A stretch of 64,000 nt of DNA from Opitutales bacterium (GCA_028280845.1 JANQKZ010000032.1:69390-133389), one strand, 5' to 3'. Positions 9,362-58,802 are shown, counted from the first letter of the stretch. Made by a program: numbers and translations. The notes: a model not told the origin generated them from the letters alone.

Positions 9362-9447
9362 GACGAAGGCGGTGCATAGCGCTTTTAATGTGCGTGCAGC
9401 GAAAGCAGGGAACCCATTCCTGAAAGCGATCAAGAAATTGACATGCC

Positions 9448-9651: not shown

Positions 9652-9655
9652 GACA

Positions 9656-10471
9656 TTAAAGCCGGGGAACCGTAAGTCCACCGTCGACCAGAATCACCTG
9701 ACCGGTCGAGTAGGGAAAATCTCCCCTCGCCAGCGAGGCGACGACCTTTCCACTATCACCGGGCTCTCCCCAACGGGGCTGCAGGCATAAGCCTTCTTCA
9801 ATCATTTTGTCATATTTCTCTGCCACCGCGGAGGTCATATCCGTGCGCGTCACGCCCGGGCGCACTTCATAAACCGGGATGCCCTCTGCTCCCAGGCGGA
9901 CAGCAAAGACTTGAGACATCATGGCAATCCCCGCTTTAGCTAAACAATATTCTCCGCGGTTGATGCTCGCCAGGGTAGCCGAGATGGAACCAATGTTGAT
10001 GATCTTCCCCTCAAAGCTGGAGTCGGCCTGCTTCGCGGCCACCATCTGGTTCGCAATGGCCTGGGACAAAAAGAAGGCCCCTTTCAGGTTGATGTCCATC
10101 ACCCGGTCATAATTTTCCTCGGTCGTTTCGAGCACATCGAGGCGCTGCTTGGGGGCGACCCCAGCATTGTTGACCAGAAGATTCAGGGCACCTCCGGCAA
10201 AGCCCTTCACGACAGACAGGATCGCCTCGCGGCCCTCCGCTTCACCAATATTCCCCTGCGCATAGGTCACCTCCACGCCCAGGGCTCTCAACTCATCCAA
10301 CACAGGCTGCACATCGGCCGCTGCCCGCATCCCGTTAATGACCAGGCCCCACCCCTCAGCGGCCAATGCCCGTGCAATCCCCAAACCAATCCCACGGCTC
10401 CCTCCGGTTATCAGGGCAAATTTTGGTCTTTTGTTTTTCGTTTGTTGTGTCTCGTTTTCTGGACTACTCAT
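9656..10471 (-). CDS. SDR family oxidoreductase (FabG/3-ketoacyl reductase-like)
   Basis: The protein has 271 aa: TGGSRGIGLGIA cofactor loop near residue 22, NNAGVAP near residue 98, INIGSISA strand (Ser), and EYCLAK as the Tyr-x3-Lys catalytic pair. It ends with GQVILVDGGLTVPRL, typical of FabG-like tetrameric SDRs. The first 15 residues are polar and may be a short extension. It is the last gene of a leftward series (GH88, TIM-barrel, Gfo/Idh/MocA, SDR) separated from the rest by a small gene on the other strand. A role in sugar or uronate oxidation is more likely than fatty-acid synthesis, by context only. Confidence 0.88.
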   Translation of the reverse strand: MSSPENETQQTKNKRPKFALITGGSRGIGLGIARALAAEGWGLVINGMRAAADVQPVLDELRALGVEVTYAQGNIGEAEGREAILSVVKGFAGGALNLLVNNAGVAPKQRLDVLETTEENYDRVMDINLKGAFFLSQAIANQMVAAKQADSSFEGKIINIGSISATLASINRGEYCLAKAGIAMMSQVFAVRLGAEGIPVYEVRPGVTRTDMTSAVAEKYDKMIEEGLCLQPRWGEPGDSGKVVASLARGDFPYSTGQVILVDGGLTVPRL

Positions 10472-10498
10472 TAATATATCAAATTGGGAGGTGGTAAT

Positions 10499-10864
10499 AT
10501 GGGAACGTTTACTCGATTCGAAGATATTGAAGCCTGGAAAGCGGCTCGGGAGCTGAACAAGAGTATCTACTCGATATCTGGATCAGGATCCTTTGCAAAA
10601 GATTTTGCCTTGAAAGAACAGATACGACGGGCCGCCATTTCAATTAGCTCCAATATCGCGGAGGGGTTTGGGAGGAATTCATCAAAGGAGTTCAAAAATT
10701 TTTTAGGATATGCTTCTGGCTCTGCTAATGAGGTTCAAAGCCAACTTTATTTAGCGCTCGATCAGGGTTATCTCACGAAGACCGACTTCAAGTCCATTGT
10801 AGAGGATGCTGAAAGAACTAAGAAGCTGATCGGTGGACTCATTCACTATCTCAATAGAAATTGA
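10499..10864 (+). CDS. Four-helix-bundle protein (23S rRNA intervening-sequence protein family)
   Basis: The start at 10499 is chosen because a strong ribosome site (GGGAGGTGG) lies just upstream. The 121-aa product has the family's pattern: FEDIEAWKAARELNKSIY, LKEQIRRAAISISSNIAEGFGR and FLGYASGSANEVQSQL. Such proteins were first described from insertions in spirochaete 23S rRNA, but most are free-standing, and they form four-helix bundles of unknown function. Base composition is clearly more AT-rich than the flanking genes. The gene interrupts a leftward operon on the opposite strand, so lateral arrival is likely. Confidence 0.88.
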   Translation: MGTFTRFEDIEAWKAARELNKSIYSISGSGSFAKDFALKEQIRRAAISISSNIAEGFGRNSSKEFKNFLGYASGSANEVQSQLYLALDQGYLTKTDFKSIVEDAERTKKLIGGLIHYLNRN

Positions 10865-10919
10865 TTAGTAGAGAAACGAACGGCAAAGAACGATAAACTA
10901 AAAACCAGTTGGCAATCTC

Positions 10920-12065
<1,146 letters not shown>

Positions 12066-12139
12066 AAAATGAAGTTCTTCGTTTTTTGTTATTTGAAAAA
12101 ATTTGACCGCTCAAACGATATACGACCCACGACAAACCA

Positions 12140-43977: not shown

Positions 43978-44020
43978 GCTCTAGGCAGTATTGTGGGTAA
44001 TTAAAGACGCTGCCTAGAGC
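43978..44020. terminator. Bidirectional terminator-like 11-bp perfect inverted repeat
   Basis: GCTCTAGGCAG (43978-43988) pairs perfectly with CTGCCTAGAGC (44010-44020) across a 21-base loop, and GGGG/CCCC next to them can extend the stem. It lies between two convergent genes and includes the stop codon of the leftward one. It could stop both transcripts. Confidence 0.55.
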
Positions 44021-44892
44021 CCCGCCAAATACCGCATGCTTTCCTGGATACTGGCGATGGGGTTGGGCGAATGGTCTTGCTCCACATGACAATGCTCTAC
44101 ACCCGCTCCCTGAGCCGCTTCAATGATGGGCTCCATGGGAATGATGCCATTGCCGAGCTCCTTAAAAGCATCTGGGGAAATCGAGCCAAAGTGCGGTAAA
44201 TCCATTCCGGCCTTCAAGTCCTTCAGGTGAAGCTGAGACACCCGACCCTTCAACTGCTGGATCAGGTCTACCGGCTCCACCCCGGCTAACTTCACCCAGA
44301 AGACATCCACTTCAAACTGCATGTGGTCGGAGAACTCGTCCATGAACACATCGTAGCCGGATTTCCCCGCATCTATCTTTTCAAACTCAAAACTGTGGTT
44401 GTGGTAGGCCAGCTGAATCCCCGCCTTTTTCGATTGCTCAGCCGCCACATTACACCGCTCCGCAATGCGCTTGTAGTGGTCGAGCGTTTCCCGCTCATGA
44501 CCATGCAGGTAGGGAATCACCAGGTGAGAAATCCCATCATCCTTGGCCTGCTGCAGAATCTTATCAAAAGCACCGGCCCCAGCCTTGTCGGGATGGGTCA
44601 CCGCCTCCCAGGCAAAATGACTCGAATTTACCGCCAACCCGTGATCCAGCGACGCCTGGATCATAGCTTCGCTATTCGGGTAGCCGTAAGCCTCTACCTG
44701 CTTATAGCCAGCTTCGGCTACGGCCTGGATCGTCCCAACGGTATCGGCATTCAGCTCATTCCGTAAAGTATATAGCTGAATCCCGATATTTTTGCGGTAA
44801 GGATTATTCTTCGCCAGGGCAAAGGACTGAAATGTGGCGGAGCTGGCCAGGGTAGCTGCCAGGGAAGACTTGATAAAGGTGCGTCGTCTCAT
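44014..44892 (-). CDS. Sugar phosphate isomerase/epimerase-type TIM-barrel protein, Tat-exported
   Basis: The 292-aa protein starts MRRRTFIKSSLAATLASS, a twin-arginine (RRTFIK) signal with hydrophobic core, so it is exported folded, presumably with metal or cofactor. The TIM-barrel pattern follows: GIQLYTLRNEL, VEAYGYPNSE, HFAWEAVTHP, YHNHSFEFEK (metal His), FEVDVFWVKLAGVEP and HLKDLK, then HCHVEQDHS. Exported members of this family act on oxidised or C-linked sugars. It is divergent from a decayed AraC gene. Shared Tat signals with the Gfo/Idh/MocA and aldo/keto reductase genes nearby suggest a common periplasmic pathway. Confidence 0.88.
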   Translation of the reverse strand: MRRRTFIKSSLAATLASSATFQSFALAKNNPYRKNIGIQLYTLRNELNADTVGTIQAVAEAGYKQVEAYGYPNSEAMIQASLDHGLAVNSSHFAWEAVTHPDKAGAGAFDKILQQAKDDGISHLVIPYLHGHERETLDHYKRIAERCNVAAEQSKKAGIQLAYHNHSFEFEKIDAGKSGYDVFMDEFSDHMQFEVDVFWVKLAGVEPVDLIQQLKGRVSQLHLKDLKAGMDLPHFGSISPDAFKELGNGIIPMEPIIEAAQGAGVEHCHVEQDHSPNPIASIQESMRYLAGL

Positions 44893-45207
44893 CGTTTAAT
44901 TGGGTTAACTGGAACTGGGGTAAAGGGGATCGTCACCCTTTCGGGAAATTACTTTCATTAACTTGATGCACAAATATCTCAAATCAACCAACCAAAATCC
45001 AGCGGGCAAAACCTAAGAAGAAGGAAAGAAGTGGAAAAACGATTTCCCGAGCGCGTGAACATGATTTCCATCCAGCGGGAAGCAAACGACCTTCGGCTTG
45101 ACGGACACAGCGAGGCGAGGATCGAGAAGTCCCGGGTCAAGATGGAGGAAGTCGTAGCCAAAACGATCCCGGATTATCTAGACCAGACCTGCAGGTTTCC
45201 CAATCGG
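44893..45207. other. Intergenic stretch, no gene recognised
   Basis: About 315 bp separates the TIM-barrel start from the decayed AraC end. Both strands hold only short, low-quality frames. No tRNA, repeat or clear promoter box was recognised, but the promoter of the leftward TIM-barrel gene must lie here. Confidence 0.5.
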
Positions 45208-45474
45208 CTAGGAAATACTCCGGTATTGGCGAGGGGAGACGCCATAGTGGAAACGGAAGTAGCGGTTGAAGTTCGCCAGGTTATTAAACCCGCAGGCAAA
45301 GGCGATCTCAGCAACAGTCTGGTCGGATTCCAACAGCTCCCGGGCGGCCCGGCCCAACCGCAGCTCGATGATGAATTGGCTGAAGGGTTTGCCCATCTGC
45401 TGGCGGAAAAACCGACTGAAGGATTGCGGATGGAGCGCGGCGCACTGGGCGACCGATTCCAGGAATTCGCTTTT
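45208..45474 (-). pseudogene. AraC-family regulator, C-terminal HTH remnant
   Basis: From the stop at 45208 backwards, the frame reads a full AraC DNA-binding domain: SVAQCAALHPQSFSRFF, RLGRAARELLESDQTVAEIA, then FACGFNNLANFNRYF and GVSPRQYRS. In the same frame a TAG sits at 45475-45477, ten residues before SVAQ. The frame continues upstream of that TAG to an ATG at 45813 with no obvious cupin, so the gene appears disrupted. The HTH alone starting at 45396 (MGKPFSQF) lacks the first helix-turn-helix. It lies beside a sulfatase that it might once have regulated. Confidence 0.6.
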
Positions 45475-45811
45475 CTAGAGCCCAGTATGCGCTTCACGAA
45501 AGCCTTCCCCCTTAGACACAGGCTCTACTGCATGGACCAGCTTATCCTTTACCCAGGCTTCAGTGCGATCCCGACCCACAGGAGATTGAGGTGAAACAGG
45601 CAATGTATGAATCCGCCTCCCAGGTTGTGTCCTGATGGATGTATCCAAGCTGGATAAACCTCCCTCATGGAAACCTTGGCCTTGCTTCAGATCGATGCAG
45701 CAGTCTTTGATCCACCCATCCCTAAACCCTGTCAGAATCTCCTCAAAGCCAATAAAGTGGACACCTTCATTGCCAACCGGAAGCAGACGGTCTAAATGTA
45801 AAAGTTTTCTC

Positions 45812-47155
45812 ATGAAACCCAAAATCCCCTTACCCACTTGCGCCCTGCTCCTCTGCTTCTTGCAGCTCACCTTGTCCGCGACCCCTCCCAATGTCATTGT
45901 CCTGTTCGCCGACGACCTGGGCTACGGTGACTTGAGCTGCTACGGGCATCCCACGATCCGCACCCCCTACCTCGACCAGATGGCCGCCGAAGGCTTGCGT
46001 CTGACCTCTTTTTACAGCGGGGCCGATGTCTGCAGCCCGGCTCGAGCCGCGCTCCTCACCGGCCGCTACCCCATTCACGCAGGCATGCCCCATAACACGG
46101 GTCCCGGATCCGACCGCCACCTGCCCAAAAACCAGATCCTGATTCCGCAAATCCTCCAGGGCCAGGGTTACGTGAGCAAGGCCATCGGCAAGTGGCACCT
46201 GGGCCACCAGGATGCGTCACTCCTCCCCGTGGGTCGTGGCTTCGATCACTTTTTCGGGCTCCCCTACTCCAACGACATGATTCGTCCCTGGGTCAATACG
46301 GACGAGCCCATGTATATGTTCCGTGATGGAGAACCTCTGGAAAAAGTTGGCCATGAGCAGAGCCACCTGACCAAGGCTTACACGGAGGAAGCCCTTGCCT
46401 TCATCCGGAAACAGGTCAAATCCGAGACTCCCTTCTTCATCTACCTGGCATACTCCATGCCCCACCTCCCGGTACATGCTCCACCCGAGCGGCAGGGCAC
46501 CTCCACTGCCGGGCGCTATGGGGATGTCATCGAAACCATCGACTGGAGTGCGGGGCAAATCATGGACGAACTCCGCCAATTGGGGATTGAACACAATACC
46601 CTAGTTGTCTTCACGAGCGACAATGGGCCCTGGCATAACCTGCCCGACCGCATGTTGGCCGAGGGCAACGAACGCTGGCACTCCGGCACCGCCGGTCACC
46701 TGAGAGGAGCTAAAACCACTTCCTATGAAGGGGGCTCTCGCGTGCCCGGCATCTTCTGGTGGCCGGGAACCATCCCCTCCGGCCGGACATCCTCCGCCAT
46801 GGCTTCCACCATCGACCTTCTCCCCACCGCGGCTGCCCTCGCGGGGGCAACGCTACCCCAGAACCACGCTGTAGATGGCTATAATCTCCTTCCCTTCCTC
46901 ATGGGAAGAACCGACACCCCCCGCAAGGAATTCATCTATTCACGGGGAGCCTACTTCGAAGCCATCCGCCAAGGACCATGGAAGCTGCGCATCGGGGGCA
47001 GTAACCCGCAGATCGAGCTGTTCCACCTCGATCGGGACCCCTCCGAGATGTACAACGTCGCCAATCGCTACCCGGAACAGGTGCAACATCTGCAAGCCGC
47101 CCTCCAGGAAAGGGCAGCTCATTATCAGGCAGACCTGCGGGAGCTGAAACCATAA
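45812..47155 (+). CDS. Arylsulfatase A-type sulfatase
   Basis: The start at 45812 (MKPKIPLPTCALLLCFLQLTLSA) gives a signal peptide and 447 aa. The metal site is VLFADDLGYGDLSCYGHP, the formylglycine motif is CSPAR (in GADVCSPARAALLTGRYP) near residue 71, and GKWHLGHQD with FTSDNGPW complete the site. This branch (arylsulfatase A/N-acetylgalactosamine-6-sulfatase-like) differs from the four iduronate-2-sulfatase-like genes, implying a second sulfate position in the substrate. It precedes the Tat-exported Gfo/Idh/MocA gene by 10 bp, so they form an operon. Confidence 0.93.
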   Translation: MKPKIPLPTCALLLCFLQLTLSATPPNVIVLFADDLGYGDLSCYGHPTIRTPYLDQMAAEGLRLTSFYSGADVCSPARAALLTGRYPIHAGMPHNTGPGSDRHLPKNQILIPQILQGQGYVSKAIGKWHLGHQDASLLPVGRGFDHFFGLPYSNDMIRPWVNTDEPMYMFRDGEPLEKVGHEQSHLTKAYTEEALAFIRKQVKSETPFFIYLAYSMPHLPVHAPPERQGTSTAGRYGDVIETIDWSAGQIMDELRQLGIEHNTLVVFTSDNGPWHNLPDRMLAEGNERWHSGTAGHLRGAKTTSYEGGSRVPGIFWWPGTIPSGRTSSAMASTIDLLPTAAALAGATLPQNHAVDGYNLLPFLMGRTDTPRKEFIYSRGAYFEAIRQGPWKLRIGGSNPQIELFHLDRDPSEMYNVANRYPEQVQHLQAALQERAAHYQADLRELKP

Positions 47156-47164
47156 GGAACCGAA

Positions 47165-48616
47165 GTGAATCCCTTGAATCGAAGAGCCTTTCTCAAAACC
47201 TCCTTGGGCGCAGCCGCCATGACCCCGATTGCTTCCGCCTGGGCCAAACCAGCTGGCAGTCTGGAGACCGTCCGGATCGGCATCATCGGATGCGGATGGA
47301 AGGGCCTCAGCCATATCGAGACCTTCGATGCCCTGCCCCAATGCCGGGTGGTCGCCCTGTCCGATCCCGACGAAAGCCGCATGCAGGAGGGCCTGACCAA
47401 GCTGGAACCGGGCCGCCCCCCCGCCCGGACCTATCGCGACTTTAGAGAACTCCTCGAGCAACCGGATATCGATGCCGTGGTCATCGTCACCCCTAACCAC
47501 TGGCACGCCCTCATGGCGGTCCTCGCTTGCGAGGCCGGCAAACACGTCTTCCTCGAAAAACCCCTCACCCGGACCTGGAACGAAGCGAGCCTCATCCTCC
47601 AAGCCGCCCAACGCACCGGCCGCATGATCCAGGGCGGCGCCCAGGGTCGCTCCGATGTCGGATTCAACGCCGCCCTCGAATTCATCAAATCCCAAGAGTT
47701 CGGCCGGCCCCAATGGGCTCATGGGTTCTGGTATCGCACCCGCGAGCCGATCGGTAAAGTGACTGGCCCTCAATCGATTCCGGCAAATGTCGACTACAAC
47801 CTCTGGACCGGCCCCGCCCCGCTGAAGCCGCTCATGCGCGAACGCTTTCACTATGACTGGCACTGGCAGTGGGACTACGGCAACGGCGAGATGGGGAACC
47901 TCGGCACCCACCAGGCCGATGAAATTGTCTACGCGCTCGGCCTGGAAGAGCTGCCCACTCGCGCCATGAGCCTGGGTGGTCGCTTCCTCTGGAACGACGA
48001 TGGCCAGACCGCCAACATGCATCTCGCCCTGTTGGATTTTCAGGGGCTTCCTTTTCTCCTCGAGGTCAGAGACCTGCCCGACCGAACTGGAGTCAGCCAC
48101 CCCGCCAGCCAGTACGGCCGCCGCAGCGGAAATCGCATCCAATACGAAGGCGGCTACATCCTCGGCGGACGCGGCGGAGCCGATGTCTACGACGCCGAGG
48201 GCAACCGCATCCAGCGCTTCCCCGGAGATGCCGGCGGCAGCCACCAGGCCAATTTTATCGAAGCCATCCGGCAGGACCATCCTTCCATCCTCGCCTCCCC
48301 CATCGAAAACGCCATCCTCTCCACCCAACTCACCAACCTGGCCAACCTGTCCTACCTCGCAGGTCGCCTAGCCACCACTCCGGAGATAAAGTCGGCTACC
48401 GCTCCCATGGGCCAGGCTCAGCCATCCGTAGATGCGTTCCTCGACCATTTGGGCCGACTAGGGATCCACCCTGACCAGCAGCCCATCACCCTGGGACCCT
48501 GGGTTAAACCGAAAGGACTACACTCCCTACCGATGACCGGAGATTCCAGTCTGGATCTACTCCTTCAGGAAAGGAGCCAAGTCCGCGCCCGGGCGCCTTT
48601 CAATTTCCCCGCTTAG
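47165..48616 (+). CDS. Gfo/Idh/MocA family oxidoreductase, Tat-exported
   Basis: A GTG start at 47165 gives 483 aa. The N-terminus NRRAFLKTSLGAAAMTPIASAWA is a twin-arginine signal, so the enzyme is exported with its cofactor bound. The Rossmann fold follows (VRIGIIGCGWKGL), then VTPNHWHALMAVLA and FLEKPLTR (EKP motif). The WHWQWDYGNGEMGNLGTHQADEI segment is typical of the exported, planctomycete/verrucomicrobial branch. Such enzymes oxidise glycoside hydroxyls using bound NAD(P). It follows a sulfatase by 10 bp and overlaps the convergent aldo/keto reductase by 4 bp. It pairs logically with DUF1080 proteins that hydrolyse 3-keto-glycosides. Confidence 0.9.
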   Translation: MNPLNRRAFLKTSLGAAAMTPIASAWAKPAGSLETVRIGIIGCGWKGLSHIETFDALPQCRVVALSDPDESRMQEGLTKLEPGRPPARTYRDFRELLEQPDIDAVVIVTPNHWHALMAVLACEAGKHVFLEKPLTRTWNEASLILQAAQRTGRMIQGGAQGRSDVGFNAALEFIKSQEFGRPQWAHGFWYRTREPIGKVTGPQSIPANVDYNLWTGPAPLKPLMRERFHYDWHWQWDYGNGEMGNLGTHQADEIVYALGLEELPTRAMSLGGRFLWNDDGQTANMHLALLDFQGLPFLLEVRDLPDRTGVSHPASQYGRRSGNRIQYEGGYILGGRGGADVYDAEGNRIQRFPGDAGGSHQANFIEAIRQDHPSILASPIENAILSTQLTNLANLSYLAGRLATTPEIKSATAPMGQAQPSVDAFLDHLGRLGIHPDQQPITLGPWVKPKGLHSLPMTGDSSLDLLLQERSQVRARAPFNFPA

Positions 48617-49605
48617 GCCACCCCGCCGTCCACGTACCCGGGCTGCATCCAGGCCACGTTCTCATGGCGGAAGAAGGGCTCCATCTTGGTACTGAGTGCT
48701 TCCATCTTCGCCTCCGGCAGGGGTTTAAAGTTCCGGACGAGCTCGAGGTTCTTTCTCAGGACCTCCATGCTGCCCTGGCTGATATTCGCCGTCGCGAAAT
48801 GAGGCAGGGTCAGCGAGTAGTGAACCAGGTCGGCCGGATCCAGCTCCGGCACACTTTCCCGGGGCCGAATCACCTTCATGGCGATGACCCCCAGACCGTG
48901 TTGGGCCGCCACAGGCACGGCATGGCCTTCGAAGTCCTTCGGGGTGTTTTTCGATTGATGATTGAGGGCAATCATCATGGCCTCAAAATCGTAAAGCTCT
49001 GCCGCTCGCTTCATACCCTCGGGCGTCGTGTGCCCGGTAAAGCCAATATGTTTGATGACTCCCTGGTCCCGATAATCATGGAGGACGTTCAAAACCTTTC
49101 CCTTGTCCCCTAAGGTCTCGGCATCTTCCACCGACTCGATGCTGTGGACATGAAACAGGTCGATGGTATCGGTATTCAGTCGCTTCAGGCTTTGTTCAAT
49201 TTCAGCTTTGGCCGCGTCAGCATCTCGCTCTCCGGTTTTGGTCACCAGGAATACTTCCTTACGACGACTCGGCAGCAGCTTCCCGATCCGCGCTTCACTG
49301 GAAATCTGTTTATTCCCGTAACTCGCTGCCGTGTCCCAGAAATACACGCCGTGGTTTAAGGCATACTCCAGGATCTCCAGGGCCTCGTCGTCATCCTCAA
49401 TCGCCATCCACCGGCTACCCGTCCCGAAGGCCAACAGGGGGACGTCTACCCCAACCTTTCCCAGCCTGCGAGTAGGCAAGCCCTTTGGATCAAAGGAAGA
49501 GGAGGGCTTCATTCCGGCAGACCCCAGGTGGGGCAACGCAGCGGCACCCGCGGTCGCTACGGCTGAGGTTTTAATAAATTTCCGACGAGGCAGTTTCTTT
49601 TCCAT
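48613..49605 (-). CDS. Aldo/keto reductase, Tat-exported
   Basis: The 330-aa protein begins MEKKLPRRKFIKTSAVATAG, a twin-arginine (RRKFIK) signal. The AKR barrel follows: LLAFGTGSRW, FWDTAASYGN with the active-site Asp and Tyr, LVTKTGE (Lys), and IDLFHVHSI (His). It ends HENVAWMQPGYVDGGVA. It is convergent with the exported Gfo/Idh/MocA gene, sharing 4 bp of stop codons. A periplasmic carbonyl-sugar reductase role is likely, since cofactor can be carried by Tat export. Substrate not shown. Confidence 0.88.
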   Translation of the reverse strand: MEKKLPRRKFIKTSAVATAGAAALPHLGSAGMKPSSSFDPKGLPTRRLGKVGVDVPLLAFGTGSRWMAIEDDDEALEILEYALNHGVYFWDTAASYGNKQISSEARIGKLLPSRRKEVFLVTKTGERDADAAKAEIEQSLKRLNTDTIDLFHVHSIESVEDAETLGDKGKVLNVLHDYRDQGVIKHIGFTGHTTPEGMKRAAELYDFEAMMIALNHQSKNTPKDFEGHAVPVAAQHGLGVIAMKVIRPRESVPELDPADLVHYSLTLPHFATANISQGSMEVLRKNLELVRNFKPLPEAKMEALSTKMEPFFRHENVAWMQPGYVDGGVA

Positions 49606-49745
49606 AACGATGTGACTCCTAAGCTAACCATAAAATAACACTAAAGCTCATTAAAGGAATTTCCTTTAGGCTGCAATAGTGACGATCTGCGGTTGTTTGG
49701 TGTCTCTATTTTAGCGGGGTTTAGCATGAATAAGTGGTGCATCCA

Positions 49746-50372
49746 TCAGGGTTCGACCTTGAGCCCGTAAACCTCGATCCAATCGAGCCGCGAGCAGGCC
49801 GGGCTCCGCCCGCCCGCCATGAGGTCGGTAAATCCGACCGATTTTACACGGGAAAGATCCGGATCGTCCATCCATCGGGTCTCCCGGATGTCGTCCGCAT
49901 TCAATCGACGCCAACGGATATCCATGATGTTGAACTCCTTCTCCCGCCAATCCTGGCTCGGCCCATCCGAGGCGTCGCTCACCAGCCAGGTGCCATCTTC
50001 CAATTGCAGCACGATGCGCAACTGCCGGAAACCGGCCTGCTTGGAGCGCCAGCGAATCTTGGCGTGCCCGGTCAAGTCGATGAGGTAATCCCTTGGGGTC
50101 AAAGACACCATCCAGTTGCCCTCACAAAGGCCTGACCAGATATAAAAGGGATCATCAATCGGTTTCTCGTGATTGCTCTTCTTGATCACATTCCGACCCG
50201 GACCGTGCAACCCCAGAATCAGGTCAGGATGCACGACGTGCTCCTGCGTCACCGGTATGGCGGGCGGAAGCTCAGCCCAGTCTTCGCGAAAGAGGAGGTC
50301 GGGCCGATAAGGGGCGTCTTGACCAAAGGCCGACACCAAGGGAAAAAACAAAAGACAATAGAAACGATTCAT
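49746..50372 (-). CDS. Secreted beta-sandwich-like protein of unknown function
   Basis: The 208-aa protein has a signal peptide (MNRFYCLLFFPLVSAFGQ) and no family I can name. It opens RPDLLFREDWAELPPAIPVTQEHV and continues with strands such as WMVSLTPRDYLIDLTGHAKIRWRS, LRIVLQLEDGTWLVSD, REKEFNIMDIRWRRL and RLDWIEVYGLKVEP, a jelly-roll-like order. Similar proteins are often found next to sulfatases and may bind glycans. It starts 18 bp after the stop of the PhoD gene, so the two are cotranscribed, which points to a periplasmic role. Confidence 0.6.
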   Translation of the reverse strand: MNRFYCLLFFPLVSAFGQDAPYRPDLLFREDWAELPPAIPVTQEHVVHPDLILGLHGPGRNVIKKSNHEKPIDDPFYIWSGLCEGNWMVSLTPRDYLIDLTGHAKIRWRSKQAGFRQLRIVLQLEDGTWLVSDASDGPSQDWREKEFNIMDIRWRRLNADDIRETRWMDDPDLSRVKSVGFTDLMAGGRSPACSRLDWIEVYGLKVEP

Positions 50373-50390
50373 TCTAAAACTCCTTTGAAT

Positions 50391-51854
50391 TTAGGGATTC
50401 CCCAAAACCTCCCGGTGGCGGACCACTGGAACGGTCGACATCGGGAATTCCGGGTCTCGACCAAACCATTCCGCTCGAGCGATTCCATTTTCGATCGTGA
50501 TCCCGAGGAATCCTCCCTTCTCACTGAAAAAGGTATGGTATTCCGGCTGGAATCCTGGATCACCTCCGTAATTGTGCTCATCATTGATCGGACCACAGCC
50601 CATTTCCATGATTCCGGTTTTTGGATCGATGGAGCAATACTGCCAGTGCCGGTCGCCCGTGATGACAAAGGTGTTGGCTTGAGTAGCGATGAAATCCCGC
50701 AGCTCCTGCCCCTCATGCATGAAGCCATCATTGGAGTGATTATCGTTTTTTCGTGGTTTATCTGGCCCCACAATGGGCCCCGGAGTAATGATGAACTTAT
50801 ATTTGGCATCCGATTCTTCGATGGTCCGCTTCAGCCACGCCTTCTGGTCCGCACCCAGGATGGTTTTTTCCGGGCCATCGGGGTCCGTATTCGCGGAGCG
50901 AAAGTCGCGGTTCTCTGTCATCCATATTTGGACATCCCTCCCCCACCGAATGGTCCGATACGTTTTCTCCCCCATGGGCACCTGTTCACGAAAGATCGAC
51001 AGCCCCTCCTCCCAGGTCAAATCCCCGTAGGTCTGCCCCGGCCAGCAATCATTCACTAAGGTGTCATGATCATCCTTCATGAAGTAGGAGCTGACCTGCG
51101 TGTGAAAAGCCAGGTTATACCCATAAGCAAACATCAGATTCCACTTGGCCCGGGCTTCGGCCACATTCTTCGCCAGGGGCGCCTTGTCATAATAAACAAT
51201 GTCACCCGTATGGACAAAAAAGTGGGGGTCTAAGGCCAGCATCTGCTGGTAGGTCTGGTGCCCTTCTGCCCCCGCATCTACGCTCCGCACCGCCTGGCAG
51301 GTGGTGACGATGAACCGGATGGGCCCGGCATCCTCCTTGGCGGGAGCGGTCTTGAACTGGCCCGGTAAGGCTGTCGTGGGTTGGTAGCCCTCCCCCCTCC
51401 GGGCCCAGACCAGGTAGTGGTAGGTCTGACCAGGTTGGAGATTCTCCAAGGGCACCTGCGCGATGAAATCTCGATCGGGATCGACCGAGATCCAGGGGGT
51501 TCCAAAGATTTCCGGAAACCCCTCTCCCGCTGCCATATACTGAATAAAGACTTCCCCTTCGGCCCCAGGCAGAATATCGGTCGGCATGGGACCTACCTCG
51601 GGACGGGCAATCGGTGAACCCTCCGTCAATATAGGCATTCGACCAAAGTCAGCCGTGGGTTCCCTCGTCAATCGAACCCACAGAATCGCTGAGTTTTGAT
51701 CGACCTCGCCTATTTTGACCCCATTGCCCAGAAAGGGACCGTCCACAGCACCCAAGTTTCCAAAAGGTAATAAGACCATAGCAGCCATGCAGATCCGCCC
51801 CGGATCATATTTACTGACAACGGATCTTAAAAATCCAATCATAGTGGTTTTCAT
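50391..51854 (-). CDS. PhoD-family alkaline phosphatase/phosphodiesterase
   Basis: The 487-aa protein has an exported N-terminus (AAMVLLPFGNLGAVDGPF). The PhoD N-terminal strand unit (KIGEVDQNSAILWVRLT) leads into the metallophosphatase core: FFVHTGDIVYYD, KDDHDTLVND and VITGDRHWQY supply the metal ligands. It hydrolyses phosphate mono- or diesters outside the cytoplasm and probably serves phosphate recovery or a sugar-phosphate step. A truncated relative of its N-terminus is seen at 21403-21630. The unknown beta-sandwich gene lies just downstream. Confidence 0.9.
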   Translation of the reverse strand: MKTTMIGFLRSVVSKYDPGRICMAAMVLLPFGNLGAVDGPFLGNGVKIGEVDQNSAILWVRLTREPTADFGRMPILTEGSPIARPEVGPMPTDILPGAEGEVFIQYMAAGEGFPEIFGTPWISVDPDRDFIAQVPLENLQPGQTYHYLVWARRGEGYQPTTALPGQFKTAPAKEDAGPIRFIVTTCQAVRSVDAGAEGHQTYQQMLALDPHFFVHTGDIVYYDKAPLAKNVAEARAKWNLMFAYGYNLAFHTQVSSYFMKDDHDTLVNDCWPGQTYGDLTWEEGLSIFREQVPMGEKTYRTIRWGRDVQIWMTENRDFRSANTDPDGPEKTILGADQKAWLKRTIEESDAKYKFIITPGPIVGPDKPRKNDNHSNDGFMHEGQELRDFIATQANTFVITGDRHWQYCSIDPKTGIMEMGCGPINDEHNYGGDPGFQPEYHTFFSEKGGFLGITIENGIARAEWFGRDPEFPMSTVPVVRHREVLGNP

Positions 51855-51928
51855 AAGTTCACCCTAACCACTCTGTTGCCTCTTCACGAGCGAAAATCCA
51901 TTCCAACCGTTACACCCGCGCTATTCCT

Positions 51929-52813
51929 ATGTGTGTTGCCCCCGTTCGATTAAAGCCCCGATTTCTCCTTGGGTTTACCGCCTTTTGGGGGGCGCTGGCT
52001 CTGGCAGTCCACGCCAATTCGCCGGATAAGACACTTGCCTATAAACCGGTGGAGAATGGCTCCCTCTCTCTTCATATCTTTCACCCGAAAGACCATAAAT
52101 CCACAGACGGTCGACCCGCCATCGTCTTCTTCTTTGGAGGAGGCTGGAATACCGGGAGCCCTTCCCAGTTCTACCCACAGTGTGCCTATCTGGCCTCCCG
52201 GGGAATGGTGGCGATCTCTGCAGAATATCGGACAAAGTCCAGCCATGGGACTGACCCTCGGGCTTGTGTCGAAGACGGAAAATCGGCCATACGCTTTGTG
52301 CGTCGTCACGCCTCCGAGCTGGGCATTGACCCCAATCGAATCGCGGCCGGTGGAGGGTCCGCAGGAGCCCACGTCGCCATCGCCACGGCAACCCTCTCGC
52401 AATTCAACGCACAGGGAGAGGACACAGCAGTGTCCAGCATTCCCAATGCCCTCGTCCTCTTCAATCCCGTTTATGACAATGGACCCGGAGGATATGGACA
52501 TGAGCGCGTGAAAGACTACTGGACGTCATTCTCTCCCCTGCATAATCTATCTCCGGATACTCCACCGACCGTGGTGTTTCTTGGGACTGCTGATACCTTG
52601 GTGCCCGTGGAAACTGCGGAGGAATTTCAAAATCGCATGAAAGCATTGGGAGCACATAGCGAATTACACCTATATGAAGATAAACCCCATGGTTTCTTCA
52701 ATCCAGGCAGGGATCCGGAGTCGTTTTATCTGACCCTGACTGAGGCTGATCGCTTCCTTACGAAATTGGGGTATCTCGAGGGTGAGCCTACTCTGGCACT
52801 TCCAGGGGAATGA
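51929..52813 (+). CDS. Alpha/beta-hydrolase, secreted esterase (HSL/BD-FAE-like)
   Basis: The 294-aa protein has a hydrophobic N-terminal segment (FLLGFTAFWGALALAVHA) that looks like a signal peptide. The oxyanion-hole motif FFFGGGW sits near residue 70, the nucleophile elbow is AGGGSAGAH (Ser near 148), the Asp lies in VVFLGTADTLVP and the His in EDKPHGFFN. Such enzymes remove acetyl or other ester groups from polysaccharides, in keeping with the SGNH hydrolase at the left edge. It is divergent from the PhoD gene and is followed by a lyxose-isomerase-like gene. Confidence 0.88.
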   Translation: MCVAPVRLKPRFLLGFTAFWGALALAVHANSPDKTLAYKPVENGSLSLHIFHPKDHKSTDGRPAIVFFFGGGWNTGSPSQFYPQCAYLASRGMVAISAEYRTKSSHGTDPRACVEDGKSAIRFVRRHASELGIDPNRIAAGGGSAGAHVAIATATLSQFNAQGEDTAVSSIPNALVLFNPVYDNGPGGYGHERVKDYWTSFSPLHNLSPDTPPTVVFLGTADTLVPVETAEEFQNRMKALGAHSELHLYEDKPHGFFNPGRDPESFYLTLTEADRFLTKLGYLEGEPTLALPGE

Positions 52814-52903
52814 TCTCCCCGGTGGACGAACAGTGAGAAATCGTCGACTTATCTTCCTGCCACACTTCAACTTTGATCTTCAAATTCCGCATTTACTTAC
52901 CCC

Positions 52904-53485
52904 ATGAAACAATCAGAAATCAACGCAGCCTACTTGGAGGCCAAGGCTGCCTTCGAGGCAAACGGTTGGGCCCTCCCCCCGAAACCGAAATGGGACATCA
53001 CCGATTTTGGCCTCGGCGATTTTGCGCGCTATGGCCTCGTCCTCATCAACCTGACAGAGGAACCGGAATACTGTGAAAAGCTGATGTATGCGAGGAAGAA
53101 TCAGTTCACTCCTATGCATAGCCATCAAAAGAAAAAAGAGGACATCATCTGCCGCTCCGGGAAACTGGCAATCGAGGTTTGGAAGGGGGTACCTAATTCG
53201 GATCACCCACGCACCTGCTTCACCCTCCAGCGAAATGGAGAATCGGTCACAATACAAAGCGGGGATATCCTGGTCCTCCAGGCCGGAGAAAGAGTCACGC
53301 TAGTTCCCGGGATTTACCATGAGTTCCGGGGAGCGGACGGCCCTGTCATCATCGGAGAAGTGTCGACTGCCAATGATGATCTAAATGACAACCTCTTTAT
53401 CAACCCTGACATTGGTCGATTTTCCAGTATTGAGGAAAACGCGCGTCCGGCAGTCCAACTGGTGTCCCAGGAACCTGAGCGATGA
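52904..53485 (+). CDS. D-lyxose ketol-isomerase-like cupin protein
   Basis: The 193-aa cytoplasmic protein shows the D-lyxose isomerase pattern: metal ligands in MHSHQKKKEDIICRSG near residue 70, VPGIYHEFRG, and the long signature GEVSTANDDLNDNLF with RFSSIEENARP near the end. Family members interconvert D-lyxose and D-xylulose, and often D-mannose and D-fructose. The PfkB-type kinase gene overlaps its stop by 4 bp (ATGA), so the two proteins act together as isomerase then kinase on the same sugar. Identity of the sugar is inferred. Confidence 0.82.
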   Translation: MKQSEINAAYLEAKAAFEANGWALPPKPKWDITDFGLGDFARYGLVLINLTEEPEYCEKLMYARKNQFTPMHSHQKKKEDIICRSGKLAIEVWKGVPNSDHPRTCFTLQRNGESVTIQSGDILVLQAGERVTLVPGIYHEFRGADGPVIIGEVSTANDDLNDNLFINPDIGRFSSIEENARPAVQLVSQEPER

Positions 53486-54501
53486 CACGATCGGGAATCA
53501 TCGCTGGAGGTAATTTTATTGTAGACCGCATCAAGATGTTGGACGTCTGGCCCAGCCAGGACGCTCTCGCCCATATCCATGCCGAGTCCAAGGGCAATGG
53601 CGGAGGCCCTTACAACGTCCTCAAAGACCTACGCAAACTGGGTGCATCCTTTCCCCTTGAGGCAATGGGATTGATCGGAGAGGACGAAGCCGGGCGATGG
53701 ATTCAGCAAGACCTGGAAAACCATGAAATAAGGATCAATACCCTTCGGACCACCAGTGAATCCCCCACCTCCTACACCGATGTCATGACGGTGGAATCAA
53801 GCGGTCGTCGGACTTTTTTCCATCAGAGCGGGACCAACGCCCTCTGGAATCCCACTCACGTCGATTTTTCACAACTAAGCTCGTATCGACATTTCCACTA
53901 CGCCTACCTCATGCTTCTGGAATCCATGGAGAAGCAGGACCATTCCGGAAACCCTGCCGTGACCCAAGTCCTCCAGTCCGCCCAACAGCACGGGCTGTCC
54001 ACCTCTGTCGATTGCGTCAGCTCATCCGCCGGCGGCTTTCCCGATCTGGTCCAGGCCGTCCTACCCTTCACCAACTATCTGTTCATGAATGAATGGGAGG
54101 CTTCCCGGATTACCGGATTAGAAATCGGCGAGGGTGATACCCTCGACATGGACCAGGTCCAGGCAGCCGCCGCTCAAATCTGCCACCATACCGAAACCCT
54201 CCGCGTCTTCATCCACTTCCCCCAAGGCGTATACTCCACCAATGGCCGTGGAGAAGATGTTGTCCAGGGTTCCGTACGCCTCCCTATGGACCGCATCCGC
54301 GGAGCTACCGGAGCCGGCGATGCTTTCTGCGCGGGTACCCTATTTGGCATTCATGAAGATTTGCCTATTCCAAAGTGCATGGAGCTTGGTGTCTGCGCCG
54401 CGGCCGCCTGTCTCCAATTTCCCACTGCCTCCGACGGCGTCCTCCCCGTCGATCAAAGCCTGGCCCTCGGCCAGGAATTCGGGTTTTATTCTCTAACTTA
54501 G
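53482..54501 (+). CDS. PfkB-family carbohydrate kinase
   Basis: The 339-aa protein has the ribokinase-like fold: N-terminal IIAGGNFIVDRIKMLD, GNGGGPYNVLKDLRKLG substrate loop, SPTSYTDVMTVES, and the ATP/anion-hole motif GATGAGDAFCAG near residue 275 with the catalytic Asp. The start overlaps the isomerase stop by 4 bp. It probably phosphorylates the ketose formed by the isomerase (xylulose or fructose). No transporter is adjacent, so sugar would come from the symporter or other systems. Confidence 0.88.
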   Translation: MTRSGIIAGGNFIVDRIKMLDVWPSQDALAHIHAESKGNGGGPYNVLKDLRKLGASFPLEAMGLIGEDEAGRWIQQDLENHEIRINTLRTTSESPTSYTDVMTVESSGRRTFFHQSGTNALWNPTHVDFSQLSSYRHFHYAYLMLLESMEKQDHSGNPAVTQVLQSAQQHGLSTSVDCVSSSAGGFPDLVQAVLPFTNYLFMNEWEASRITGLEIGEGDTLDMDQVQAAAAQICHHTETLRVFIHFPQGVYSTNGRGEDVVQGSVRLPMDRIRGATGAGDAFCAGTLFGIHEDLPIPKCMELGVCAAAACLQFPTASDGVLPVDQSLALGQEFGFYSLT

Positions 54502-54544
54502 ATAATAGCATCCCGCATCCATGACAAAAAGGGTATTCGATCTC

Positions 54545-54597
54545 CGACCACCGACCATCCGCCATCGACAATTCACCATCGACCATCGACAATCAAG
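54545..54597. repeat. Short direct repeats of CCATCGAC in the spacer before the DsbA-like gene
   Basis: CCATCGAC occurs at 54562, 54576 and 54583, and related GACCATCC at 54553, within about 50 bp. The block ends 3 bp before the start codon at 54600. It looks like a low-complexity expansion rather than a binding site, and it leaves no clear ribosome site before the next gene. Confidence 0.55.
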
Positions 54598-54599
54598 GC

Positions 54600-55253
54600 A
54601 TGCTCAAACTCACCTACTATCTCGATGTCGTCTCCTCCTGGTGTTTCTACGCGGAAGATACTTGGGCAGAGCTAAAGGAGTTTTACGAAGACTTGGCTAC
54701 TTTTGAATGGAAGGTATCCCTGATCCCGCCAGCAGGCCTTCCCAAGTCGCGGGAGGAAGAGGAATATTATTATCGCCGGAGCGGAACTACGGTCCGCTGG
54801 CAGACTATGCTGAACGGGGCCTGGTTGAATCCCGAAGTGGAGGAATATCTGGTGCCCAACGCCGTCGCAGAGGCAGGAAAAGACTTCGGAATCACCGATG
54901 ACCGAATTCGCTTAGCCCTTGCTCACGCTGCCATGGTGGAAGGCCAATCCATCTGGGATTGGAAGGTCGCCGCAGGTGCTGCTGTTACAGCCGTGGACCT
55001 TGATCAGGAAGCCCTGCTGGAGACAGCCCGGTCCCAGGAGATCGAAGATCGGGTCCGGGCTTCTACCCAAGCGTTCGACAATCTCCAGGTCAATCAACGC
55101 CCTACCTTTATCATTGAAGATGAAATCGGGGATCGTGCCGTCTTCTCCGGCCTCATCCACCTGGACCCGTTGGTGTCGACCATTGAGTCCATGATCGAGG
55201 ATTGCCAGGCCTACCGTGCCTACCACGCCCACCATGGCGAGTGGCCGGCTTGA
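54600..55253 (+). CDS. DsbA-family thioredoxin-like protein without CXXC
   Basis: The 217-aa protein has the DsbA/HCCA-isomerase fold: N-terminal LTYYLDVVSSWCFYAED, helical insertion (WLNPEVEEYLVPNAVAEAG), and the cis-Pro loop NQRPTFIIEDEIGDRAVFSG. The usual active-site CPWC reads SSWC, so the first Cys is Ser and disulphide exchange is unlikely. It could be an isomerase or glutathione-type enzyme like 2-hydroxychromene-2-carboxylate isomerase, where a Ser occupies this position. No signal peptide. It follows the PfkB gene at 98 bp and may be cotranscribed. Confidence 0.82.
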   Translation: MLKLTYYLDVVSSWCFYAEDTWAELKEFYEDLATFEWKVSLIPPAGLPKSREEEEYYYRRSGTTVRWQTMLNGAWLNPEVEEYLVPNAVAEAGKDFGITDDRIRLALAHAAMVEGQSIWDWKVAAGAAVTAVDLDQEALLETARSQEIEDRVRASTQAFDNLQVNQRPTFIIEDEIGDRAVFSGLIHLDPLVSTIESMIEDCQAYRAYHAHHGEWPA

Positions 55254-55394
55254 TCCGGATCCACAACACATCCCCGATGGAAGCGGTGGATCCTTCCCCC
55301 TCAATACCATCTCCCTATGCACAAATGCGAAATTTATTTCCCGAATTCGATTTAGCGGATTTGATTTCGTATTTAATATGATAAGGTTTTTTGT

Positions 55395-56111
55395 ATGAAG
55401 TTTGTCTTTTGCCTCTTAATCATAGCTGCGTTATCACTGCCCGGGGGAATGCTCATAGGCCAGAACACGAGCTCGGTCTTCAGTCCAGATGTGACCCGAG
55501 GAAAGAATGCCATCGAATACCGGGCTGCCTACGACTCAGATGCGGAGGCGTTTTCGCACCGGTTACATTACCAATACGGGTTCACTGACGCCTGGCGGGG
55601 CCGCGTAATTTTGACCCAATTTGATCGACCAAGCCAGAATCTGGAGCTCCGCTATATTCGCTTTGAGGGTCTCTGGCAATTCCTCGAAGATGGCGAGGCC
55701 GGGTGGGACAGCGCCCTCCGCTTTGAGCTCCAGTTGACCGAGGGCGACAACCCACCCCACCGGGCCCGTATCGCCTGGAGCGGCAAAAAGGACCTCAATG
55801 AGAAATGGCAAATCCGGGGCAATTTCCTGACCGGGCGCCAGTTCGGGAACGAATCCAAAAAGGGGTGGCTCCTGGAGAGCCGGGCTCAAATCACCCGCAA
55901 ACTCAATCCAAACTGGAGTCTGGCGGTGGACTACTTCGGGGACATGAATGACACCGACGAGTTTGGCGCTTTCAAAGATCAGGAACACCAGTTGGGTCCC
56001 CTACTCAAATTCAAGGCGGGAGGCGCTTCCGGCCTCTTTGGTCCCCTCTTCGGAGTATCCAGCTCCGCTCCAGACCTGGAACTGCGCTGTCACCTGATCT
56101 GGAGTTGGTAA
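55395..56111 (+). CDS. Small outer-membrane beta-barrel-like protein
   Basis: The 238-aa protein has a signal peptide (KFVFCLLIIAALSLPGGMLI). The rest alternates polar and hydrophobic residues in short strands (IEYRAAYDSDAEAFSHRLHYQYGF, LELRYIRFEGLWQF, SALRFELQLTEG, WQIRGNFLTGRQFG, LLESRAQITRKLNPNWSLAVDYF) and ends in an aromatic residue (HLIWSW), as outer-membrane barrels do. I see no named family. It stands alone between a DsbA-like gene and a GH28-like gene. A porin-like or copper/metabolite-resistance-type barrel is possible but not shown. Confidence 0.6.
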   Translation: MKFVFCLLIIAALSLPGGMLIGQNTSSVFSPDVTRGKNAIEYRAAYDSDAEAFSHRLHYQYGFTDAWRGRVILTQFDRPSQNLELRYIRFEGLWQFLEDGEAGWDSALRFELQLTEGDNPPHRARIAWSGKKDLNEKWQIRGNFLTGRQFGNESKKGWLLESRAQITRKLNPNWSLAVDYFGDMNDTDEFGAFKDQEHQLGPLLKFKAGGASGLFGPLFGVSSSAPDLELRCHLIWSW

Positions 56112-56188
56112 CAGTTACCCGTTGAACGATGATTGGAAACCCGGCGAATAGCATTGCCGATAAAAATCCAATCCCGCTTCAATAGCGC

Positions 56189-57634
56189 ATGAGCCGTCCC
56201 CTTTGCCTCATTCTGTTATTCCTGCCCCTCGCCTCCATGCTGCATTCCGGCGTTACGGTTTACCCTTACCCCGAAGAAGCCCCAAAGTCTGAACGCTATC
56301 GGGTCTTCATCAACGACCGGGAAGTGTTTGTTTACCAGAACCCCATTGCTTCGATTGTGATCTTCGAGATGGACGGCCCGGTGGAGGTGCGCATCGAGTC
56401 CCAAACCATCATTCGGCATGTCGATGTCCGGCCCCTGTCTCACGAAATCCAGTCCCAATGGGGCGGGAAGGCGGCCGCTTTTACCCTCGACCAACCCAGA
56501 AAACTGAGCATCGAATTCAACGGCCTGCTCGATGATCCGCTCTTTCTCTTTGCCCACGCCCCCATTGCCCGGCCTGCCAACAACCCGAAGGGTCGCCTCC
56601 TCACCTTCGAGGCCGGAAAAGTCCATGAGCTCGGACTGGTAGAGCTCCAGTCTGGCGACCTGGTCTTCCTGGAGGGGGGCGCCATTATAAAAGGAGACTT
56701 CCTCGCAGAAGAGGTCGAAGATGTCGTCATCCAGGGCCCTGGGATCATCGATGCCACCCTGACGACCGAGCCGAGCCCCGATACCGTTTACACCAATCGG
56801 GTTATCTCGCTCTTCCGGTCCCACAATATCCGCCTGGAGGACTTCCTCATTTCCAACGCCGGGAAGTGGCAGGTGGTTCCCGATCAATCCACTCAGGTCA
56901 CCATCGATGGCATACAAATTGTCAGTGACAACGGGACCGACGATGGAATCGATATCGTCCGCAGCCAGGAGGTCATCGTCCGCAACGTATTTGTCCATAC
57001 CAAGGATGATTGCATCGCGATCAAAGCCTTTACCCCCGACCGCCTGCTCCGCCCCAGCCAGAATATCCTCATCGAAAACGGCACCTTCTGGAATACCCAG
57101 TGGGGAAACGGGTTTGAAATCGGCTTTGAACTCCGGACCGACTCCGTTCGCAACATCGTCCTGCGGAATTGTGACTTTATTCACGTGGAGAAGGGGGCTG
57201 TCCTCAGCATCCACAACGCAGACTACGCCGTCGTCGAAAATGTCGTGTTTGAGGACATCCGCGTCGAGGATGCCCGTCAAAAACTCCTGGATTTTGCCAT
57301 CCTCTGGACCAAGTTCAGCGAAGACGGCCCCAAGACCGAAGCCGAGTGGGAACGCCGTTACCAACACGGAGGAGTATGGGACAATGTCATGGATTTCTCA
57401 GAAGCGGAGCGGGAGGCCATCACCCAAAACCGGGGAACCATCCAAAACATCATAGTCCGCAACCTGCGCATCGTTGACGGAGGCCTGCCCTTTTCCATCT
57501 TTTCGGGATTTGATGAAGATCACCTGGTCCAGGACATCCTCATCGAGGACGTCTACCTCTACGACCAGAAACTCACCACCGCCGAGGATCTTAAACTCTA
57601 CACTAAATTCACCGAAGGCGTCACCATCCGCTAA
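56189..57634 (+). CDS. GH28-like glycoside hydrolase (polygalacturonase fold), GNG variant
   Basis: The 481-aa protein has a signal peptide (RPLCLILLFLPLASML) and a parallel beta-helix core. GH28 motifs are visible: NGTDDGIDI (catalytic Asp region), TKDDCIAIK (Asp-Asp pair) and WGNGFEIGFEL where the normal GHG contains Asn instead of His. RIK is not evident. These changes suggest a GH28 relative with altered action, perhaps on uronate or modified galactose rather than plain pectin. It begins 77 bp after the barrel-like protein gene. The aldo/keto reductase gene follows after 154 bp. Confidence 0.82.
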   Translation: MSRPLCLILLFLPLASMLHSGVTVYPYPEEAPKSERYRVFINDREVFVYQNPIASIVIFEMDGPVEVRIESQTIIRHVDVRPLSHEIQSQWGGKAAAFTLDQPRKLSIEFNGLLDDPLFLFAHAPIARPANNPKGRLLTFEAGKVHELGLVELQSGDLVFLEGGAIIKGDFLAEEVEDVVIQGPGIIDATLTTEPSPDTVYTNRVISLFRSHNIRLEDFLISNAGKWQVVPDQSTQVTIDGIQIVSDNGTDDGIDIVRSQEVIVRNVFVHTKDDCIAIKAFTPDRLLRPSQNILIENGTFWNTQWGNGFEIGFELRTDSVRNIVLRNCDFIHVEKGAVLSIHNADYAVVENVVFEDIRVEDARQKLLDFAILWTKFSEDGPKTEAEWERRYQHGGVWDNVMDFSEAEREAITQNRGTIQNIIVRNLRIVDGGLPFSIFSGFDEDHLVQDILIEDVYLYDQKLTTAEDLKLYTKFTEGVTIR

Positions 57635-57788
57635 TGTTCAGGTGGAGGCGGCTCACCCCCAGGTCGCGAAGTTCTGATATCCTCGACCAATCAGAAAAGA
57701 ATGCTTAGGCTCAGCCTGCCCATTCCCCCCCTTCAATTGTGGGAGCGGGCTTGACCCGTGACTTGGCATCTTCAACTCACCACCCCCT

Positions 57789-58802
57789 ATGAAACGCCGT
57801 TCCTTCATCACCACCATCCCCGCTGCTGCGGCTGCCGGGTCTCTACCCGCCTCCGGCAGCTCCTCCAAGCCCGCTCCCCCTACCGACAAGTGGGGCCCCC
57901 TCCTTCCCTCCCGCCCCCTCGGCCAGACCGGCGATTCCGTCACCCTGCTCGGCGTCGGTGGCTTCCATGTGGGATGGACGGAAAAGAACCACGCCGCAGA
58001 AATCATCGAAACGGCCATGGAGGGTGGTATCCGTTTTTTCGATACCGCAGAGAGCTACCAGGAGGGCGAAAGCGAACGCCGCTTTGGCGAATACCTCATT
58101 CCCAAATACCGGAATGAGATTTATCTCATGACCAAAACCACGGCCAAAGATGCCAAAACCGCCCGGGAACACCTGGAGGGCAGCCTCCGCCGCATGAAAA
58201 CCGACACCCTGGATCTTTACCAGATCCACTCCCTCCGTGACCCGGAGGATGTCGACAACCGGCTCGCCAATGGTGTCCTGGATGTGCTGCTCCAGGCCCA
58301 GGAGCAGGGCAAAGTACGTCACCTTGGCATCACCTGTCATACCAACCCGGAGGCCCTCCTCCGCATGCTGGAACAGACCCGGGATACTCAACCCTTCCAG
58401 GCCTGCCAAATGCCGGTCAACGCCCTCGACCCCAGCGCCCATAGCTTCATTCGCCAGGTGCTTCCCTTGCTCCAGGAACGACAAATCGCCCTCCTCGCCA
58501 TGAAAACCTTAGCCGACGGTCGCTTCTTCGCCCTCAAGCGGCGCCCGGAATGGGTCCAATGGCAAACGGAAAACCCGATCATCCCCACCAGCCTGAGCAT
58601 TCGCGACGCCCTCGCCTACGCCTGGTCCCACCCTGTCAGCACCCTGATCACTGGAGCGGAGAATGCTTCCCTCCTGCGGGAAAAAATTGATTTTGCCAAG
58701 ACCGTTACCCCGCTTTCCGCGGAAGAGCAACGGGGCATGGAAGCCATGCTCCAAGCTTACCCCAGCGATGAAGTAGAATATTATAAACGCCCCACAAGCT
58801 GA
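57789..58802 (+). CDS. Aldo/keto reductase, Tat-exported
   Basis: The 337-aa protein begins MKRRSFITTIPAAAAAGSLPASG, a twin-arginine signal (RRSFIT). The AKR barrel follows: RPLGQTGDSVTLLGVGGFHVGW, FFDTAESYQEGESERRFG with active-site Asp and Tyr, LMTKTTAK (Lys), and LYQIHSLRDP (His). It is a distant relative of the exported AKR at 48613. As there, cofactor would be carried in during export, so a periplasmic carbonyl-sugar reduction is likely. It ends before a stem-loop at 58842. Confidence 0.88.
   Translation: MKRRSFITTIPAAAAAGSLPASGSSSKPAPPTDKWGPLLPSRPLGQTGDSVTLLGVGGFHVGWTEKNHAAEIIETAMEGGIRFFDTAESYQEGESERRFGEYLIPKYRNEIYLMTKTTAKDAKTAREHLEGSLRRMKTDTLDLYQIHSLRDPEDVDNRLANGVLDVLLQAQEQGKVRHLGITCHTNPEALLRMLEQTRDTQPFQACQMPVNALDPSAHSFIRQVLPLLQERQIALLAMKTLADGRFFALKRRPEWVQWQTENPIIPTSLSIRDALAYAWSHPVSTLITGAENASLLREKIDFAKTVTPLSAEEQRGMEAMLQAYPSDEVEYYKRPTS

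Follow-up and report, generated by a model that had tools for sequence, protein, structure and literature searches.

Periplasmic oxidative glycoside cleavage is already known, from the BT2156-2160 genes, from LacABC with DUF1080 proteins and from the AtOGE operon. AtOGE from Agrobacterium tumefaciens (8BVK) eliminates 3-keto-O-glucosides with Mn2+, and its operon encodes oxidation, elimination, hydration and reduction, where the oxidoreductases are accompanied by two TIM proteins; the operon's putative hydratase, AtHYD, carries a sugar phosphate isomerase annotation as well (PMC10628242). The periplasmic enzyme BT2158 acts as a glycoside 3-dehydrogenase (PMC11300592), and LacABC together with DUF1080 has been proposed as a periplasmic 3'-ketolactose route (PMC9007349). 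Here we compare these systems with a stretch of 64,000 nucleotides from an Opitutales bacterium (GCA_028280845.1, JANQKZ010000032.1:69390-133389; "the window"), where a TIM-barrel protein (TIM), a Gfo/Idh/MocA protein (Gfo) and two aldo/keto reductases (AKR1 and AKR2) carry twin-arginine translocation (Tat) motifs.

Our best explanation, to which we give a probability of about 0.6, is that these are four Tat-exported carbohydrate enzymes in a genome with a greatly expanded repertoire of such enzymes, that they are neighbours and not one pathway, and that TIM is a 3-keto-glycoside lyase or hydratase. The window is not a new kind of system. What it appears to add is one Tat-exported enzyme within the lyase group, along with a divergent set of exported Gfo proteins.

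Table 1. Features of the window, with positions counted from its first letter.
Feature	Positions	Strand	Motifs, domains and remarks
TIM-barrel open reading frame (TIM)	44014-44892	-	MRRRTFIK; Pfam AP_endonuc_2 (PF01261)
Gfo/Idh/MocA open reading frame (Gfo)	47165-48616	+	NRRAFLK; PF01408 and PF19051
Aldo/keto reductase 1 (AKR1)	48613-49605	-	RRKFIK; Aldo_ket_red PF00248
Aldo/keto reductase 2 (AKR2)	57789-58802	+	KRRSFIT; Aldo_ket_red PF00248
Formylglycine-type sulfatase (CSPAR)	45812-47155	+	PF00884; Sec-like signal; 9 bp gap to Gfo
DUF1080 / 3keto-disac_hyd gene	4864-5589	+	Domain 4927-5577; PF06439; hydrophobic Sec-like signal, no RR motif
Second DUF1080 gene	4081-4728	-	Domain 4093-4632; PF06439, 160 bits; Sec-like signal, no RR motif
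Third DUF1080 domain	17464-18027	-	Lies C-terminally in a long propeller protein of the WD40 type; PF06439, 116-119 bits
AraC-type regulator remnant	45208-45800	-	Split over frames
D-lyxose isomerase family and PfkB kinase genes	52904-54501		Overlapping genes

Export signals and the TIM-barrel protein

The initial annotation described these four enzymes, with Tat motifs, inside 15 kb, and the open reading frames, motifs and Pfam domains are all as it said. The pattern RRx[FLI][ILMV] occurs in the first 35 residues of 4 of the 43 genes in the window, namely TIM, Gfo, AKR1 and AKR2, and shuffled N-termini gave an expectation of 0.12. The maximum of the 14-residue mean hydrophobicity was 1.0-1.5 in the four proteins and 1.6-2.7 in the Sec-type neighbours that we compared; such weak hydrophobic stretches are as expected for Tat. 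At a loose threshold, the NCBI Tat-signal model TIGR01409 gave 65 matches in the genome, including Gfo and AKR1 (19.5 bits for AKR1, with a cut-off of 16.7), and did not pick up TIM and AKR2. For these two the case comes from conservation of the twin arginine (RR): 27 of 29 TIM orthologues retain the motif and RR is present in every AKR2 homologue that we examined. There is an RR-type motif at 76 of the 83 Gfo loci as well, and the motifs are conserved in the homologues although the remainder of the signal diverges. The annotation had named Sec-type signals and a genome without TatABC as grounds for giving it up; with weak hydrophobic regions and a conserved RR the signals are Tat-type in all four, and the genome encodes TatC. 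We therefore take all four enzymes to be predicted Tat substrates. Tat-signal matches form clusters elsewhere as well (a second match lies within 15 kb for 24 of 55, where about 16 would be expected; this and all later proximity counts are for the bacterium's own genome), so the four-gene cluster itself is not very unusual.

The best PDB sequence match of TIM is AtOGE (8bvk, E 8e-20), and the other nearest sequences are 8tcd, 8tcs and 8tct. TIM and AtOGE share the TIM-barrel fold and 31% identity over 224 aligned residues. All eight of the metal-binding or catalytic residues of AtOGE (E39, H66, H132, H134, E161, D163, H189 and E233; roles taken from PMC10628242) are identical in TIM, as E67, H92, H164, H166, E194, D196, H222 and E271. 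This set includes the Mn2+ ligands His132, Asp163, His189 and Glu233 and the catalytic His134 (AtOGE numbering), and the eight residues are invariant in all 29 orthologous genes. TIM differs from AtOGE in having a conserved Tat signal, and there is no counterpart in the window to the tight AtOGE operon.

The predicted model of TIM has a mean predicted local distance difference test score (pLDDT) of 87. A fold search with the model returned two Parabacteroides proteins of unassigned function at the top, followed by AL1, BT1 and AtOGE, which makes 8tcd, 8tct and 8bvk the nearest named folds. AL1 (8TCD, Alistipes) and BT1 (8TCT, B. thetaiotaomicron) share the HNH, D and H-x-K-D motifs with TIM, but they have just 24-27% identity to it by structural alignment and another gene context. 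The 3-keto-beta-glucopyranoside-1,2-lyases scored 5e-16 to 4e-13 and epimerases 3e-10 or weaker.

We considered whether TIM could be an exported epimerase, isomerase or inosose-dehydratase-like enzyme that acts on free keto sugars or inositols. Those enzymes are in the same superfamily, TIM has a weak match to IolE, and IolE chemistry is likewise an elimination next to a ketone. However, the named sequences and folds nearest to TIM belong to 3-keto-glycoside lyases, epimerases and IolE are clearly more distant, and all of the AtOGE residues are kept, so we judge this alternative to be unlikely. The epimerisation step proposed in the initial annotation is probably wrong for TIM, which resembles 3-keto-glycoside lyases far more than epimerases in sequence, fold and residues. 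For this one enzyme, the same evidence bears out the proposed link to 3-keto-glycoside chemistry. Going by sequence and predicted structure, TIM is probably a Tat-exported 3-keto-glycoside lyase and/or hydratase.

Of the 273 genomes of the order that were sampled, 28 have a TIM orthologue. Some of these orthologues lie directly 3' of an MFS_2 sugar symporter gene, and in one genome (G036) a Tat-signal Gfo gene with 282 bits for BT_2158 comes 66 bp after the orthologue. In 22 TIM loci a member of the sulfatase family is no more than three genes away. We rejected this adjacency as a functional signal because sulfatases are abundant (the compared genomes have 79-90 scored sulfatases each, and up to 335 candidates) and because the ones adjoining TIM orthologues are not close to the sulfatase of the window. 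A separate arrangement is found at 8208-12137 of locus L158 and at the syntenic loci of lineage f2, where a cytosolic Gfo, an unknown 221-aa protein, a Tat-signal TIM and a sulfatase follow each other in conserved order and the TIM and sulfatase genes overlap by 4 bp. Among the TIM-sulfatase loci, only the lineage f2 order is likely to be a true operon, and it may tie the TIM lyase group to sulfated substrates.

The Gfo/Idh/MocA protein and the aldo/keto reductases

The best NCBIfam match of Gfo is the BT_2158 glycoside 3-dehydrogenase (NF058561), scoring 133 bits where the cut-off is 750, and its best PDB match is Alistipes AL3 (8tdf). Gfo has the fold of BT2158 and AL3 and also their catalytic Lys and His, as K132 (the Lys of E-K-P) and H249, but the Asp of G-D-x-x-x-H is replaced by Asn245. 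Asn is found at this position in 80 of 80 Gfo homologues, most of which are from other phyla. On the score and the Asp-to-Asn change, we rejected Gfo as a true member of the BT_2158 family. The predicted model (pLDDT 89) found AL3 first in a fold search, with several other sugar oxidoreductases within a tenfold score, so the search does not discriminate between them. We believe that Gfo is best described as a predicted exported sugar oxidoreductase from a conserved subfamily of the Asn type, for which glycoside 3-dehydrogenase activity is possible.

Zymomonas glucose-fructose oxidoreductase is Tat-exported with bound NADP. Its precursor form (1H6A) shares the Gfo fold with the window protein, but the overall match is weak and confined to the Rossmann half.

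Around the 80 homologues of Gfo we found no TIM match, just one weak AKR match and no conserved partner. Lack of a partner is what one would see if Gfo were a stand-alone, GH109-like NAD-dependent glycosidase, in which oxidation, elimination, hydration and reduction all take place in one site on a bound NAD. GH109 enzymes have this fold too (the PDB matches include 2ixa and 6t2b), and the Asn in place of Asp separates Gfo from the BT_2158 dehydrogenases. Even so, 2ixa and 6t2b match the Rossmann half only and far more weakly than 8tdf does, and in the Pfam search the substrate domain matched PF19051 and not the GH109 substrate domain. We think it quite improbable that Gfo works in this way.

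Both reductases have an intact catalytic tetrad (D91, Y96, K123 and H154 in AKR1; D85, Y90, K116 and H147 in AKR2), and for both the best PDB match is 9yeb, which is named just "Oxidoreductase". A close homologue of AKR1 was not found in the order, where the best has 35% identity; AKR2 has homologues of up to 55%. They appear to be exported oxidoreductases without an identifiable substrate. A reductase outside the cytoplasm would need to hold a captive cofactor or draw on some other source of electrons. Our literature searches on Tat-exported AKRs or Tat-exported Gfo enzymes found none.

Gene arrangement and the genome-wide repertoire

The initial annotation went further and joined the four enzymes and the DUF1080 proteins into one pathway in the periplasm, in which a glycan sugar is oxidised, cleaved and reduced again. 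In favor of this are the four Tat signals within 15 kb, the resemblance of TIM to the lyase modules and of Gfo to the dehydrogenase modules of known pathways, and the Gfo and AKR1 genes, which are convergent and overlap at their 3' ends. There is also a Tat-signal AKR2 paralogue (41% identity) divergent from a Tat-signal Gfo gene on contig C18 (L109, 10099-12706), the only other close AKR-Gfo pair that we found in the genome.

On the other side, the genes are in separate transcription units on both strands: TIM (-), sulfatase-Gfo (+), a PhoD-like gene to AKR1 (-), and GH28-AKR2 (+), with AKR2 starting 154 bp after the GH28 gene. Promoter and terminator scans were at chance level. In every relative that we checked, homologues of the four are on separate contigs or have more than 100 kb between them; in the complete genome G031, for example, TIM is at 2669 kb, Gfo at 2824 and 3836 kb, and AKR2 at 3286 and 3586 kb. 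For AKR1, no close homologue was found in the order. AKR genes lie within 3 kb of a Gfo gene no more than by chance (2 of 17, 0.85 expected). Between the DUF1080 genes and the Tat genes lie 26-40 kb, and the signals of the two single-domain DUF1080 proteins are Sec-like. The window Gfo also differs from known 3-dehydrogenases at the Asp position. Because the homologues are unlinked in every relative checked, we rejected the four genes as a single pathway. We read them as neighbours and not as a dedicated or conserved pathway unit, and a single pathway of the four enzymes with the DUF1080 proteins is, in our view, improbable.

The sulfatase gene is the probable operon partner of the Gfo gene. 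Between TIM and the sulfatase, the AraC-type regulator remnant looks like a pseudogene. Further along, at 52904-54501, the D-lyxose isomerase family gene and the PfkB kinase gene form a small sugar-catabolic operon.

As the annotation stated, the window has three DUF1080 proteins (3 of the 25 matches in the genome); their linkage to the Tat enzymes did not hold up. The two single-domain genes are divergent and 135 bp apart, with no Tat-signal Gfo gene nearby. The distance of the DUF1080 genes from the Tat genes is a difference from LacABC with DUF1080, a system that is like the present one in periplasmic glycoside oxidation and cleavage and in the presence of DUF1080 proteins in the genome; LacABC was not searched for here. 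DUF1080 genes beside a Tat-signal dehydrogenase gene do not occur in the window and are seen elsewhere in the genome, at C22:67297 and on contigs C33, C41 and C46. At four loci (L095-L098; C41:140345-142327, C46:60060-62179, C33:28689-31430 and C45:163-5978), a DUF1080 gene lies next to or close to a Tat-signal Gfo gene amid sulfatases, and the two are adjacent or overlapping on C41 and C46.

In total the genome has 33 BT_2158-like Gfo matches, 27 AP_endonuc_2 matches and 25 DUF1080 matches. AP_endonuc_2 genes lie within 3 kb of a BT_2158-like Gfo gene in 8 of 26 cases (1.3 expected) and DUF1080 genes, somewhat more than expected, in 4 of 21 (1.0 expected); like that for the AKR genes, these expectations assume random placement, count the window in and ignore operon clustering, and are indicative only. 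Contig C1 (C1:40297-57474; L092 and L093) has four Tat-signal Gfo/Idh/MocA genes in 17 kb, one with 397 bits to BT_2158, and a Tat-signal gene for an AP_endonuc_2 TIM barrel comes 2 bp after the last of them (the pair is at C1:55085-57474). We regard this Gfo-TIM locus as a better candidate than the window for an exported 3-keto-glycoside operon.

What the exported enzymes may do

If TIM is a 3-keto-glycoside lyase or hydratase, the first step would be oxidation of its substrate by one of the numerous Gfo/Idh/MocA dehydrogenases that are exported by Tat; these presumably take NAD along when they leave the cytoplasm folded. The window Gfo would be one candidate for the oxidant among about 33. 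AKR1 or AKR2 as the final ketoreductase is possible, and unsupported.

Several points weigh against our explanation. TIM has just 31% identity to AtOGE, and IolE-type dehydratases match it with a weak score of 39 bits. Lyase and hydratase are inseparable for TIM on the sequence, because of this low identity and because AtHYD is likewise annotated as a sugar phosphate isomerase. The window Gfo ranks 14th of the 33 genome matches in similarity to BT_2158, with 13 genes scoring higher, and the Asp of known 3-dehydrogenases is absent from it. Among the eight AP_endonuc_2-Gfo pairs, several have short or weak Gfo matches and one is the window itself.

A more speculative idea, to which we give little credence, is that the lineage runs a large modular exported pathway of oxidation, elimination, hydration and reduction with interchangeable Tat-exported dehydrogenases and lyases. 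The Tat-exported AKRs, with captive NADP, would then be a new extracytoplasmic reducing module and the Asn-variant Gfo a new reaction type.

The genome-wide repertoire of Gfo, AP_endonuc_2 and DUF1080 genes is more telling than the 15-kb stretch. If the role that we propose for TIM is true, the orthologues in 28 of the 273 sampled genomes would form a conserved group of Tat-exported 3-keto-glycoside lyases, and redox cleavage of glycosides outside the cytoplasm may account for much of the glycan breakdown in these sulfatase-rich bacteria, a part that is missed by counts of carbohydrate-active enzymes (CAZymes).

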